A stretch of DNA of 64,000 nt from Aequorivita sp. CIP111184 (lineage in GTDB: Bacteria; Bacteroidota; Bacteroidia; Flavobacteriales; Flavobacteriaceae), in the NCBI RefSeq assembly GCF_900489465.1, contig NZ_UEFQ01000028.1, positions 124,001-188,000 of the forward strand, in the 5' to 3' direction. A program made the position numbers and the translations under genes. Below, in pieces: positions 2,242 through 7,573 of the stretch (positions are counted from its first letter, which is position 1; every line of letters starts with the position of its first letter). The notes below the pieces were generated by a model. It saw only the letters and a program-made list of their open reading frames with translations. It was not told the DNA's origin and searched no databases.

Positions 2242-2688
2242 ATGTCAAACATTAAATGTATTTTAAAAAACCCTATTGTTGAATTAAAAAAATTAAACAA
2301 TCTTTCTCACGAAGATTGTAATCGAGGAATAAGCTTAGTTTATTTACATAGTATCCGAAATTATTTTTTACACGATCAACAAACTTATTTAGAATCAATC
2401 AGAATTTTAGATAGCGACGATAATAACAATTTACAAGTTCTCGATTATGATTGTGAAATTCTGAATTTGGAAATTATTAATTTTAAAAAATGTTCAATTG
2501 ATTTATTAGTAAAAATAGATCTGTTTTTTAAAGTTCGAGAGTTTGGAAATATGAATAAATACCCACTTAGACATTTTCAGTTAAATGCTAAAACGATTCT
2601 TATTTTTAATGAACCATATAACCATAAAATAGTTTTTAAAGATATTGATTATAAAGAACTTAAGATGAACATCTCTATTATGTCATGA
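2242..2688 (+). CDS. hypothetical protein, 148 aa
   Basis: I do not recognise this protein. It is 148 residues, without signal peptide or membrane segment, rich in Asn, Ile and Leu, with alternating hydrophobic stretches suggesting a mixed alpha/beta cytosolic domain. It starts 78 bases after the mutase gene and is followed by another unknown gene on the same strand. Its very AT-rich composition differs clearly from the upstream mutase gene, which fits an accessory gene. The size and setting would suit an immunity-type protein, but nothing in the sequence shows that. ORF length and context are the only support for coding. Confidence 0.6.
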   Translation: MSNIKCILKNPIVELKKLNNLSHEDCNRGISLVYLHSIRNYFLHDQQTYLESIRILDSDDNNNLQVLDYDCEILNLEIINFKKCSIDLLVKIDLFFKVREFGNMNKYPLRHFQLNAKTILIFNEPYNHKIVFKDIDYKELKMNISIMS

Positions 2689-2747
2689 TTTGTTTGTATT
2701 TAATTATATCCAAAATATTGAAATATTTACTCTAATAATTCCAAATC

Positions 2748-3332
2748 ATGAAAATAGTCAATATTATAGTTTTCCTCTTCTTTATTTCTACAGCTAATAG
2801 TCTTGCACAAATAGCACAAAATGATTACAATATTTTTCAAGCAAAGGAATTTAGTAAAGATATCTCCCTTTTTAAATCGAAGACATTCTTGCTTCACAAT
2901 GTTTTAGCTATAAAGGAGACAGTATTGACTTTTGAGTCGATTCCTTTGGCTGCTGCGAGTTCTGGAGAATTAACGACATTGCTTTATCGTTGTGAACAAT
3001 TAAATAAAGAAGGACTTATTTTAGGATTTTACGGAGATTATTGGAATGATTCAGGTGTTACATTTCAAGGTTACGGTTTTAAAAATTTACCCAAGGAAAA
3101 AGCAATCGAGTTTTTTAATAAAATTGAAAAGTCAATTGAAGAAAATAAAAAGTTCTTAAAAGATAGTAATGATTACAATAACATAGCATTTAGCTTTGAT
3201 GATATGAAAATCTTAATTTGGACAATTTCTGGTAGTTATAAAATCAGGGTTTATTGGAATGGTTTTGATTCCACATGGGAGCAAATCTCTTATGAAAGAT
3301 CAAAAAAAAGATTTGAAAAAAAAATAAACTAA
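2748..3332 (+). CDS. hypothetical secreted protein, 194 aa
   Basis: The protein starts with a clear signal peptide (MKIVNIIVFLFFISTANSLAQ), so it is probably periplasmic or surface exposed. The mature part is about 173 residues, with Trp/Tyr-rich segments near the C-terminus (about residues 155-180) and a very basic tail (KKRFEKKIN). I see no catalytic motif and no sorting domain. It follows the 148-residue unknown gene by 59 bases on the same strand and may be co-transcribed. The family is not recognised. Confidence 0.65.
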   Translation: MKIVNIIVFLFFISTANSLAQIAQNDYNIFQAKEFSKDISLFKSKTFLLHNVLAIKETVLTFESIPLAAASSGELTTLLYRCEQLNKEGLILGFYGDYWNDSGVTFQGYGFKNLPKEKAIEFFNKIEKSIEENKKFLKDSNDYNNIAFSFDDMKILIWTISGSYKIRVYWNGFDSTWEQISYERSKKRFEKKIN

Positions 3333-3344
3333 CTCTCGCAATCG

Positions 3345-3480
3345 CACGTTTGAATGGTGTGTTCGCAAACTTGCTCACAACCAATCGCAGTTTTGCCAAA
3401 GGCAAGGAAGGCGTTGCAAATGCGAACCAGCGAGTTAATTTTGCCAAAGGAAAGAAACGCGTTGCAACACACACCAGCAC
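3345..3480. repeat. GC-rich intergenic repeat element with internal direct repeats
   Basis: Between two convergent unknown genes lies a stretch much richer in GC than its flanks. It holds a 29-base direct repeat, 3391-3419 and 3439-3467, matching at 26 of 29 positions; both copies begin TTTTGCCAAAGG and end GCGTTGCAA. The segment near 3345 (CGCACGTTT...GGTGTGTT) resembles one near 5103. Similar GC-rich strings recur between genes in flavobacterial genomes as I remember them, but I cannot search for copies. A 78-codon reading frame on the minus strand mirrors the DNA repeat and is probably not a gene. Confidence 0.6.
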
Positions 3481-3494
3481 ATGGATAAATCTTT

Positions 3495-3962
3495 TTATAA
3501 TTTTGGTCGGCTTAGAATACTGATGTTCCCATCTTCATTATAACTGACAATGATTAATATAAAATTTGTTTCCCAAAAGAAAGCATCATTATATTTAACG
3601 TGAGATTTAAAGCGCTTATCTAATATTTTTGAAATTAAATTTATACCATTGCCATCCGATTTAGTTATGATTATGTGCTCTAAATCTCCTTGCGAATTAA
3701 AATAAGCCCTTCCGGTATCAAAACCGAGATCTGAAAAAATATTATATTCATCATCACCGCTAAGCAGGGTCAAAAGATTTGTCATTCTTGTAATCCAATA
3801 AGTTTTTTTTTCAGATTTAACCGATGAAACATCGCCTTCTTCAAGTGGATATTCGGTAATTTTTTTATAATAATCAACATTTAAAAATGTATAATCATTT
3901 TGTGAGAGTGCAAGAGAAATAAAAGAAAGAAAAATAAATATAGAGAGCAGAATTTTTTTCAT
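3495..3962 (-). CDS. hypothetical secreted protein, 155 aa
   Basis: A signal peptide is clear (MKKILLSIFIFLSFISLALSQ), giving a mature exported protein of about 134 residues. The mature part has acidic and aromatic segments without recognisable catalytic motifs, cysteine pairs or repeats. It is convergent with the preceding 194-residue gene, separated by the GC-rich repeat element. No family could be assigned. The signal peptide and even codon use support it being a real gene. Confidence 0.65.
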   Translation of the reverse strand: MKKILLSIFIFLSFISLALSQNDYTFLNVDYYKKITEYPLEEGDVSSVKSEKKTYWITRMTNLLTLLSGDDEYNIFSDLGFDTGRAYFNSQGDLEHIIITKSDGNGINLISKILDKRFKSHVKYNDAFFWETNFILIIVSYNEDGNISILSRPKL

Positions 3963-4275
3963 TGTCTTTAATTTTAATACAAATATACCATTATAATTTC
4001 TTGTTTTATTTTAGAATAAATATAGGTTTTATCGCTCCGCTAGCGCCACCGTCCCGCTCATGCCTATTCCTCCAAAACCCTTTTAAAGTTTTAACCCATA
4101 ATTTCAAAGACACTATATTTCTTTAATCATTAGCTTTTCTGGAAAATGAGAGACTTCAATGGAAAGGATTATTTTTAGAAAACCAATTACGATTTTTAAT
4201 TGGAGTATTTTTGTCGATATTAGGTACAGCTCATTTGTAAAACTTGAGCTTTCATTTATTAAAATTATAAGACTT
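3963..4275. other. intergenic region with a short GC-rich island
   Basis: About 310 bases without a convincing gene. Most is AT-rich, but 4032-4072 is a sharp GC-rich island that includes the palindrome GCTAGC inside CGCTCCGCTAGCG. It looks like another fragment of dispersed repeat material. A reading frame from 4159 joins the following gene, but its first 39 residues look like translated non-coding DNA. Confidence 0.4.
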
Positions 4276-4938
4276 ATGAAAATACATATGAAGATTACCG
4301 ATTTAAAGAAGGTTAGCGAACTGGATTTTTATTGGAAAAATTCTGATTATAAAAATCTTCTTAAAGAATTTGGTTATGCTGATGTTGAAGGTATTCCAGA
4401 AAATGAAATTCTGGACTATCTTTTTTTGGCAATTTTAGATTATAAACCGGCAGAAGCTGCAGCGGTTATTTTAACCTATAAAATGAGTGATAAATTAAAC
4501 GAGGGTCAGATTCAAAACCTGGCTAATGAAATGTTGTTGGATAAGTTAGCTGAAGAATATCCAGACCCGGCTTTGCATTTTGATATATTTAATATAAATC
4601 AATTTTTACGAAAAGCATATAACGGTTCATTTCCAGATACAGAAGCAACCATTATTACCGCAGAAATTCAGGGAATGGGCGAGGATGTTGAAATGACAAA
4701 GGAGATCCTGATTAAAACTTTATCTCATGGTTTAAGGGATAGCAATTTAGTGAAAAGACTTTATGGTGATCAATTAAACGGCACTTTGCCTTTTGAGGAT
4801 GCTGGAAAGGTAATTTGGCATTTTAGGAAATTATCTGAAAATGAAGTAGAAATCATTACCTCAAATTATTTGATTGCCAGAGAAGACTTCGGATTAATGG
4901 AGTTTGAGACGGAGTTAAAATATTTTGAGGAAGATTAA
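4276..4938 (+). CDS. hypothetical protein, about 220 aa
   Basis: Cytosolic, acidic protein of unknown family without signal peptide or membrane segments. Predicted largely helical, with regions such as DYLFLAILDYKPAEAAAVIL. The frame extends upstream to 4159, but that part is rich in Ile/Phe/Arg and unlike the rest; ATG at 4276 (or 4288, MKITDLKK) is the more likely start. The stop codon at 4936-4938 is followed in the same frame by the relic of a YoeB toxin gene, so the present C-terminus (KYFEED) may lie at a recombination junction. No function can be given. Confidence 0.6.
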   Translation: MKIHMKITDLKKVSELDFYWKNSDYKNLLKEFGYADVEGIPENEILDYLFLAILDYKPAEAAAVILTYKMSDKLNEGQIQNLANEMLLDKLAEEYPDPALHFDIFNINQFLRKAYNGSFPDTEATIITAEIQGMGEDVEMTKEILIKTLSHGLRDSNLVKRLYGDQLNGTLPFEDAGKVIWHFRKLSENEVEIITSNYLIAREDFGLMEFETELKYFEED

Positions 4939-5091
4939 GAAGAAACTCCTTTTGAAGGTATAGGTAAACCCGAAGCTTTAAAATATCAGCTCACAGGATT
5001 CTGGTCTAGGCGAATTAATAGAGAACATCGTTTAATTTATAAAATCAAATCTTAGATAATAACAGTATATTCTCTAAAAGGGCATTATTAA
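4939..5091 (+). pseudogene. relic of a YoeB-family toxin gene (C-terminal two thirds, with internal stop)
   Basis: Translation from 4939 gives [13 protein letters not shown], then [17 protein letters not shown], a stop at 5053-5055, and in the same frame VYSLKGHY followed by TAA at 5089-5091. Laid on E. coli YoeB (84 aa), this covers about residues 35-84 without a gap. The catalytic E46, R65 and H83 and the final Tyr are kept, and one codon (position 73) has become TAG. The first ~34 residues and any start codon are missing, and no YefM antitoxin gene is nearby. YoeB is a ribosome-dependent mRNA interferase, and this copy cannot make a full protein. Confidence 0.85.
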
Positions 5092-5095
5092 TACC

Positions 5096-5131
5096 GCACA
5101 CTAGCGCACGTTTCTAAAGTGTGTCCATGTA
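5096..5131. repeat. short GC-rich repeat-like segment
   Basis: Directly after the YoeB relic a GC-rich stretch appears in AT-rich surroundings: GCGCACGTTT at about 5104, then AAAGTGTGTCC. It shares the pattern CGCACGTTT...GTGTGT with the segment near 3345. The flanking CACAC and GTGTG can pair imperfectly. Interpreted as a second fragment of the same repeat family. Confidence 0.35.
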
Positions 5132-5233
5132 GTTTTTCAGAAACATTTTCCACAGGCTATAAAAATAAAGAAAACACAACCAAAACAATATTCGTATCTT
5201 GTAAGAAACTATTTACTAAATACTTATAAGATT

Positions 5234-6025
5234 ATGAAAGCAAAAATTAAATTTAGTATTGCGCTACTACTATTGGCTTTTGGAATTGTTTCATTTACAA
5301 GTAACGAAGAAGTTTTGATTCACCCTAATGAGACTATCGCTTCATCAAAGATTGAAACCTTTACCTTTTCATCAAATGGAACAAGTTATAATGGTAAAAT
5401 ATTCTTGCCGGCCGCTTTTGAAAAAAATAAAAACCTGCCAGTTATCTATTTAATAGATTTTTCAGATCAACATTTTAAACTTGCAACTGACGAATTTGAA
5501 AAGGTAATTGATGGTGTAAACCAAATTCAGGGGCTTGATGCACTTGTTGTTAGTTTAGAAAACATTCCTGATTTTGACGCTGAACCCGAAACATTTCAAA
5601 AGCATTATGAGATTTATAAAAATATGGCAAGGTATGTTGATAGTAAATACACCGAAAACGCATCTAGAACATTAATTGGAAGAGGAAGTGAAGCAGGTAT
5701 AATTCTTATGGCTCTTTTTGTTGAAAACTCAGAAACTTCGGTTTTTGATAATTTTATTGTAACAGATCCATCTCCTAAATATGCATCAGCTATTATAGAT
5801 TTAATTGAAGATGATTCTATTCCGAAAAACAAAAAGAATAAAAAGCTCCATTATTCCTTCTCAATAAGTAATGATCGTGCAAAATGTACCAAACTTATCA
5901 ATCTGATAAAAGATGCTAATTATGGATGGTTACAAGTACAATCAATTGAATACACGAATATTGATTATGAAAATACATATCCAATTGCTTATACAGCTGG
6001 AATAAAATACATTTTCAACAAATAA
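5234..6025 (+). CDS. exported esterase-like alpha/beta-hydrolase homologue lacking obvious catalytic residues
   Basis: The 263-residue protein has an N-terminal signal/anchor (residues 5-22). The layout resembles the Esterase D/enterochelin esterase fold: a beta strand then LPVIYLIDF (68-76), a nucleophile-elbow-like LIGRGSEAG (147-155) and a C-terminal GIKYIF. In active relatives the elbow is GxSxG; here the aligned residue is G151, with S152 shifted by one. The C-terminal segment where the catalytic His usually lies reads ENTYPIA. It is therefore either a non-catalytic relative or only a distant one. A TTGTAAGAAA stretch before the start may be promoter sequence. Fold assignment is by motif memory only. 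Confidence 0.5.
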   Translation: MKAKIKFSIALLLLAFGIVSFTSNEEVLIHPNETIASSKIETFTFSSNGTSYNGKIFLPAAFEKNKNLPVIYLIDFSDQHFKLATDEFEKVIDGVNQIQGLDALVVSLENIPDFDAEPETFQKHYEIYKNMARYVDSKYTENASRTLIGRGSEAGIILMALFVENSETSVFDNFIVTDPSPKYASAIIDLIEDDSIPKNKKNKKLHYSFSISNDRAKCTKLINLIKDANYGWLQVQSIEYTNIDYENTYPIAYTAGIKYIFNK

Positions 6026-6371: not shown

Positions 6372-7466
6372 TTAGTTTCTTACAATCTTCACAGTTTCAT
6401 TTCCTAAACGCACATAATAAAGCCCTTTCGCAAAGTTTGAAAAGTCAATCTGCTTTTCACTTTGGGTAAGTTCACCAGACAGTAATCGTTGCCCAAGCGC
6501 AGAATACACTTCAAAATGTACGGGATTGGTACTATTTATATTTACAAAGTCGTGCGTAGGGTTTGGATATACGCTTATCGCAAAGCTATTATCAGGCACA
6601 CTAAGCAACTCACATTCAAAACTAGATAGTACTTTAGAAGCCGCTGGAGGATCTACTAATAGTGACTCAGTTAATAACGGACAATAACAGTCATTTTCAT
6701 CTACATATAACTTAAGCCAAGAAAGCGCTATTTTACCCACAGCACCATTGCCACCGTTTGGTGTATTCGCTACCGAATGGTTTCCATTTTCAATTTCAAA
6801 AAGTAGCTTATTGGTTGTATTTGGAGTAGCTGCATAATGCAGGTCTGCGTGTTGTGCAGGAGGGGCAGTGGGGTCATTTTCGCCGCTAAAAATCAACACA
6901 GGACTGTCGTGGTTTAAGGAAGCGTTTGGTAGCCAAGGACACAAAGCAACCACACCTTTTATGGTATTGTCCAATACAGCTGCACGTTGCGCGCCGCCGC
7001 CGCCCATAGACCATCCGCTCACTGCAAATTTGTCAACATCAAGCTGGTTTTCTAATGGAGATGAGCTTCGGGTATTTTCCTGGCGCATAGTTTCTAAAGC
7101 GTCAATAAGCGCAACGGCTCTTTCCTCTGGAAAATCAAAAAGAGAATTGGTTCCAATAATGATGGTAACTATTCCGTGGGAAGCATAAAAAGGCCCCCAT
7201 TCTTCAACACTGGAAGGGAGTGCGGTAAACCCAGGAACAATGGCAATACTGGCAAAAGGAGGTGTAGCATTTGTGGGATAATATACCGTGGCACCTTGAT
7301 AATCTGGGCCATTTCTAAGGCCATCCGCTTCAGTAAGTGTAGCAACTTCATAGGGCCCTGGGTTTGTTAAACTCTCTATGGTTACATCGCCACATTGCGC
7401 AAATATAATATTTGGTGCAAAAGAGGTTGCTAAGAAGAAAAGCGCTACTGCGTAAATTTTTTTCAT
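6372..7466 (-). CDS. secreted PETase/cutinase-like polyester hydrolase with type IX secretion sorting domain
   Basis: Counting from the first Met of the 370-residue frame (7484), a signal peptide (residues 7-29, ending IIFAQ) leads to an alpha/beta hydrolase closely patterned on PET hydrolases: VPGFTAL (83-89, F86 where IsPETase has Y87), GWSMGGGG (157-164, nucleophile S159), CPW with W184 at the second aromatic clamp position, ENDPTAP with D204, and GNHSVAN with H236. A cysteine-bearing segment (DCYCPL) follows. The last ~70 residues are a type A sorting domain (VYPNPTHDFVNI ... GLYYVRL), so export by the type IX system is expected. Start chosen at 7466 (residue 7) because it opens the signal peptide. 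Bacteroidota enzymes of this architecture with activity on PET are known; natural substrates are uncertain. Confidence 0.88.
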   Translation of the reverse strand: MKKIYAVALFFLATSFAPNIIFAQCGDVTIESLTNPGPYEVATLTEADGLRNGPDYQGATVYYPTNATPPFASIAIVPGFTALPSSVEEWGPFYASHGIVTIIIGTNSLFDFPEERAVALIDALETMRQENTRSSSPLENQLDVDKFAVSGWSMGGGGAQRAAVLDNTIKGVVALCPWLPNASLNHDSPVLIFSGENDPTAPPAQHADLHYAATPNTTNKLLFEIENGNHSVANTPNGGNGAVGKIALSWLKLYVDENDCYCPLLTESLLVDPPAASKVLSSFECELLSVPDNSFAISVYPNPTHDFVNINSTNPVHFEVYSALGQRLLSGELTQSEKQIDFSNFAKGLYYVRLGNETVKIVRN

Positions 7467-7573
7467 ATGTATAATTTTAAACAACTGTTTCCATGTTGAA
7501 AAATAGACTTTTTAAAGTTTTCATCAAAATATAAACCGCGCAAATAGCAATTAACTCCCCTAAAATATTTCAT

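Follow-up and report, generated by a model that had tools for sequence, protein, structure and literature searches.

A PETase-like esterase gene with a type IX sorting domain in Aequorivita, a probable orthologue of PET27, PET28 and PET29

The window analyzed here, a stretch of 64,000 nucleotides from an Aequorivita assembly of 3,536,078 bases, carries a gene that raises the question of which ester hydrolase it encodes, whether the product attacks PET, and what it acts on in nature. The initial annotation described this gene as encoding a PETase-like polyester hydrolase exported by type IX secretion. The open reading frame (6372..7466, reverse strand) starts with ATG, encodes 364 amino acids with no internal stop, and has a computed product mass of 39.24 kDa. 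The motifs GWSMGGGG, ENDPTAP, and GNHSVAN were all found, starting at residues 151, 196, and 228, and the earlier observation was confirmed except for its residue numbers: S159, D204, H236, W184, and F86 are each six too high for the annotated ATG and match a count from a TTG at 7484, which opens an alternative frame of 370 amino acids. Counted from the ATG, these residues are S153, D198, H230, W178, and F80, and M154 completes the Phe-Met-Trp set. Enzymes of this kind are already known, as T9SS-exported PETase-like Aequorivita esterases were published and partly characterized in 2022 according to PMC8767016; the gene in the window is either a further orthologue of these or encodes the type enzyme. 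We consider it very probable that the protein is an Aequorivita orthologue of PET27, PET28, and PET29, namely a serine esterase that is exported by the Sec and type IX systems, acts on a natural ester, and would have PET hydrolysis at most as a side activity.

The hydrophobic leader of the protein ends in FAQC, and a signal peptide was predicted for residues 1-23 (7398..7466, as for all features of the gene on the reverse strand), with the mature protein starting at Gln24. The pair Gln24-Cys25 is invariant in an alignment of 30 rows (the window protein and 29 relatives), and cleavage between residues 23 and 24 is given for PET27-PET30 in Table 3 of PMC8767016. The preprotein would cross the inner membrane via Sec, and cleavage by signal peptidase probably leaves Gln24 at the N-terminus, where it may turn to pyroglutamate; a cut before Gln would fit the Bacteroidota Q-rule (PMC5837995). 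The catalytic alpha/beta-hydrolase domain covers residues 30-266 (6669..7379), based on the PETase family PF12740 (191.8 bits against a cut-off of 28, E 2e-56, in a profile search of the window protein) and on the Foldseek match to 7pzj. It is followed by a T9SS type A C-terminal sorting domain (Por_Secre_tail) at residues 299-361 (6384..6572), matched by PF18962 (residues 299-361, E 3.1e-12) and TIGR04183 (residues 299-362, E 2e-11). Additionally, the host genome encodes SprA, the T9SS translocon (2882.9 bits), so that the protein shares with PET27/PET30-type esterases a sorting domain in a T9SS-encoding genome, and the sorting domain noticed initially is borne out by both family matches. The same genome holds 33 further matches to the window protein, 32 of which begin at residue 271 or beyond, in the linker and sorting domain, as is expected of many T9SS cargoes. 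The C-terminal domain would route the enzyme through the type IX system.

The nucleophile elbow GWSMGGGG (residues 151-158, 6993..7016) contains Ser153 and Met154, which aligned with Ser160 and Met161 of IsPETase. Asp198 (6873..6875), aligned with IsPETase Asp206, is the predicted catalytic acid, and His230 (6777..6779), within GNHSVAN, the predicted base. All three residues are invariant in the 30-row alignment, and this conservation together with the fold match suggests that Ser153-Asp198-His230 forms the catalytic triad. Putative aromatic clamp residues are Phe80 on the first side (7227..7229), aligned with IsPETase Tyr87, and Trp178 on the second (6933..6935), aligned with IsPETase Trp185 and occupied by Tyr in PET30; the earlier reading of both positions therefore holds by alignment. 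The invariant residues Cys262 (6681..6683) and Cys285 (6612..6614) presumably form a disulfide, their numbering being that of the PET30 bond reported in PMC8767016. Judged by these residues, the protein would possess one C-terminal disulfide and none at the active site (Gly195/Val232), as well as the triad and the Phe-Met-(Trp/Tyr) cleft of PET27/PET30-type esterases. The mature enzyme would be a serine ester hydrolase acting through Ser153-His230-Asp198 with a cleft of Phe80-Met154-Trp178, which, by analogy with tested relatives, should take esters with short to medium acyl chains as well as aliphatic polyesters. A side observation concerns five genes of uncultured marine Flavobacteriaceae (L041-L044 and L049), a marine sub-branch with an altered subsite residue, in which His replaces the Trp of the nucleophile elbow (5/5) and the gene lies directly behind polA (4/5).

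The structure prediction proposed as a check in the initial annotation was run, and the predicted fold matched that of PET30. An AlphaFold model built on the 30-row alignment had a mean pLDDT of 84.0 and a pTM of 0.71, and a Foldseek search with this model placed PET30 of Kaistella jeonii (7pzj) first (rmsd 1.3, TM 0.90 over the target), followed in order by LCC, Ple629, PET44, and IsPETase. PET30 was also the top PDB match by sequence (residues 1-363, E 3.6e-154), followed by Ple628, 7cwq, and Ple629. The names given by PDB depositors (PET30 as 'Lipase', 7cwq as 'DLH domain-containing protein') are labels only. With IsPETase (6eqe), the window protein shares the fold, the triad, and the equivalents of Trp159, Met161, Trp185, and Ser238; however, it is only 37.6% identical, carries the added T9SS domain, and has Phe80 for Tyr87, Gly195/Val232 for Cys203/Cys239, and His206/His210 for Ser214/Ile218. 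Ser214 and Ile218 beside the clamp Trp are typical of IsPETase. Among the Type IIb features, the combination of Ser238 and Trp159 is present as Ser231 and Trp152, whereas the second active-site disulfide and the Ser214/Ile218 pair are replaced as described above. The score against NF051441, the bis(hydroxyethyl) terephthalate hydrolase model, was 146 bits, far below its cut-off of 520. By these sequence comparisons, the window protein groups with PET27-PET30 rather than with IsPETase.

The four reference enzymes originate from Aequorivita sp. CIP111184 (PET27), A. viscosa (PET28), A. vladivostokensis (PET29), and K. jeonii (PET30) according to PMC8767016. In Table 1 of that report, all four are active on pNP esters, tributyrin, PCL, BHET, and Impranil, and terephthalate is released from PET by PET27 and PET30 and by neither PET28 nor PET29; the report also gives IsPETase as 4.7-fold and about 253-fold more active on PET than PET27 and PET30, respectively. 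Therefore, the initial statement that such enzymes hydrolyze PET and other esters stands for the other esters in all four and for PET in two of them, and it fails for PET in PET28 and PET29. The proposed alignment with known Bacteroidota PET hydrolases was carried out with the homologues found in the A. vladivostokensis and A. viscosa genomes, of 365 amino acids each, which were taken as PET29 (WP_052671284) and PET28 (WP_073216622) because species and length agree. Identity over residues 25-266 was 96.3% to PET29, 80.6% to PET28, and 75.2% to PET30. PET29, reported as PET-inactive in PMC8767016, has the T9SS domain, agrees with the window protein at each of the 39 active-site and cysteine positions compared, and differs by nine substitutions in residues 25-266, nine in residues 267-298, and a sorting domain of 71.2% identity. 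PET28 has the same architecture but differs near the cleft (e.g., L83Q, L179Y, and T200V), and is likewise listed as PET-inactive in PMC8767016. PET30, with weak PET activity reported in the same source, ranks first by both sequence and fold; it has Tyr178 where the window protein has Trp178, and its sorting domain is 40% identical. The family, the export signal, and the sequence and fold match to PET30 agree with the earlier assignment alongside the enzymes from Aequorivita and Kaistella, and the prediction that this gene encodes a PET27/PET30-type polyester hydrolase is well supported.

The gene was found in 10 of 28 Aequorivita genomes (E 1e-20 or better) and in 15 of 397 genomes of an evenly drawn family sample (E 1e-60), its own included in both counts, and the host genome has no second PF12740 match (1/1). 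Neighboring open reading frames were clustered over 32 loci (the window and L019-L049), with polA, priA, nadC, and YihY named by eye from sequence and DUF2147, DUF6122, and DinB-type by Pfam. All seven Aequorivita loci at the shared site (the window and L019-L024) keep one flank consisting of priA, DUF2147, YihY-type, nadC, and DUF6122 genes, and a dinB cluster lies in this conserved flank in six of the seven. The dinB gene of that site occurs in 15 of the 28 genus genomes, and the esterase gene is absent from eight of those 15; in G001, presumably the genome of A. sublithincola by our guess, the dinB and esterase genes are about 119 kb apart. The gene immediately follows polA in 13 of the 24 loci L026-L049. 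Recurring neighbors among the clustered loci, judged by eye from sequence, resemble DNA polymerase I, ribosomal proteins L13, S9, and S2, and pyruvate carboxylase. Inference of the substrate from gene neighbors was rejected, as these differ by lineage and are housekeeping genes or lack an assignment.

In the gene tree of 39 rows, 22 of the 35 inner branches are open, so we make no claim on transfer or loss. The tree rows L064 and L067 are identical, the same open reading frame having been entered for both; L048 was left out of the tree and the identity alignment by a motif filter and is included in the 30-row alignment, and rows L010-L014, L016, and L018 of the identity alignment duplicate genes of named loci. 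The locus of L064 and L067 (G195:C35:27893-29923), from one member of the family, contains two tandem PETase-like genes with 58% and 54% identity to the window catalytic domain. On the other flank of the window gene, positions 2242-6025, between a methylmalonyl-CoA mutase gene and the esterase gene, hold five open reading frames, all without a Pfam match; this flank varies among the Aequorivita loci and is a stretch of variable gene content. One of these frames (5234-6025, forward strand, 263 amino acids), with no Pfam family at E 0.01, has a leader-like start and by eye resembles a degenerate alpha/beta hydrolase with GRGSEAG at the expected elbow.

Catalytic-domain dN/dS between the window gene and five congeners was 0.029, 0.050, 0.034, 0.020, and 0.063, of which two ratios are rough as dS exceeded 1, and the gene is under strong purifying selection in all five comparisons. 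The sorting domain drifts, from 93.9% down to 60.6% identity across the same five congeners. Ring-hydroxylating dioxygenases of PF00848, the family to which we take terephthalate dioxygenase to belong, were not found in the host genome, against 4 positives among 14 control genomes; growth on PET is therefore unlikely. The tannase/MHETase family PF07519 had no matches in the host genome, nor in the controls. Taken together, the purifying selection, the scattered presence within the genus (10/28), and the lack of a PF00848 match in the genome point to an ester as the natural substrate, and the first two argue for a substrate older than plastics. This substrate would most likely be an ester of marine organic matter.

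Other assignments of the natural role were weighed against this reading. Dienelactone hydrolase (EC 3.1.1.45) has a Cys nucleophile, whereas the window protein has Ser153 in GWSMGGGG. It passes the DLH family model PF01738 taken alone, at 23.9 bits just above the cut-off of 21, and PET30 was deposited as a lipase; however, the 191.8 bits for PF12740 favor a PETase-like protein, as initially proposed, over the DLH family, and PCL and Impranil were cleared by all four of PET27-PET30 in PMC8767016. A plain dienelactone hydrolase, or a small-ester lipase without polyester activity, is thus highly improbable. Depolymerization of cutin or polyhydroxyalkanoate as the natural role would agree with a fold shared with bacterial cutinases, LCC among them, and with the attack on aliphatic polyesters by PET27-PET30 described in PMC8767016, but we regard it as unlikely: PF10503, the one PHB-esterase family searched, was not found in the host genome (2 of 14 controls positive), and the neighbors, varying by lineage and either housekeeping or without assignment, give no clue to the substrate. 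The natural substrates suggested in the initial annotation, cutin and polyhydroxyalkanoate-like material, are unsupported, and an ester of marine organic matter remains the preferred reading.

The chances seem evenly balanced that the protein functions as a PET hydrolase, in which case it may be PET27 (WP_111881932) of Aequorivita sp. CIP 111184. PET27 is given with 364 amino acids in PMC8767016 and with Ser153, Asp198, His230, and Cys262-Cys285 in PMC11509169, and its length, triad numbers, cysteine pair, Phe-Met-Trp residues, and T9SS domain are all those of the window protein. However, the same residues are common to the Aequorivita relatives, including the PET-inactive PET29 (39/39 positions), and the printed weight of PET27 in PMC8767016 is 37.8 kDa against the 39.24 kDa computed here; the weights printed there for PET28 and PET30 are also more than 1 kDa below the computed values, and that of PET29 agrees. 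Neither weight nor the type III polyketide synthase family, present in 9 of 10 genomes, discriminated. For Aequorivita sp. CIP 111184, PMC6139392 gives a genome of 3.5 Mb and 16S identities of 98% (A. antarctica) and 96% (A. sublithincola). The host assembly has 3,536,078 bases, its partial, N-gapped 16S sequence (contig C32) is 99.2% identical to that of A. antarctica and 98.3% to that of G001 over 1148 bases, and the nearest protein is also that of A. antarctica (97.5% over residues 25-266), which fits PET27 and is not proof of it.

Judged from its sequence, the protein has about even odds of being active on PET. PET29, the nearest tested relative among those aligned and 96.3% identical in the catalytic domain, lacked PET activity in one test reported in PMC8767016; any action of the window protein on PET would be secondary, and the protein may or may not possess it. 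Should the host be CIP 111184 and the window protein PET27, only nine substitutions within residues 25-266 would separate an enzyme active on PET from one that is not, and none of the nine would fall on the triad, the clamp residues, or the 39 compared positions; we hold this reading to be somewhat short of an even chance. As a counter-reading, the inactivity of PET29 on PET would be an assay effect, since PET29 was obtained mostly as inclusion bodies, though PET27 was likewise. If the two enzymes do differ in this way, a handful of residue swaps could map the determinants by which a general polyester esterase becomes a PET hydrolase. The main practical use of the window protein would be in comparison with PET29, as two close relatives from which the basis of PET activity might be worked out.

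In addition, a contig of the same assembly outside the window (G000:C23, 4,688 bases; L069) carries a full-length 16S sequence with about 74% identity to Aequorivita and 83.6% to E. coli. This sequence is probably contamination, and the N-gapped 16S of contig C32 is likely the true one.
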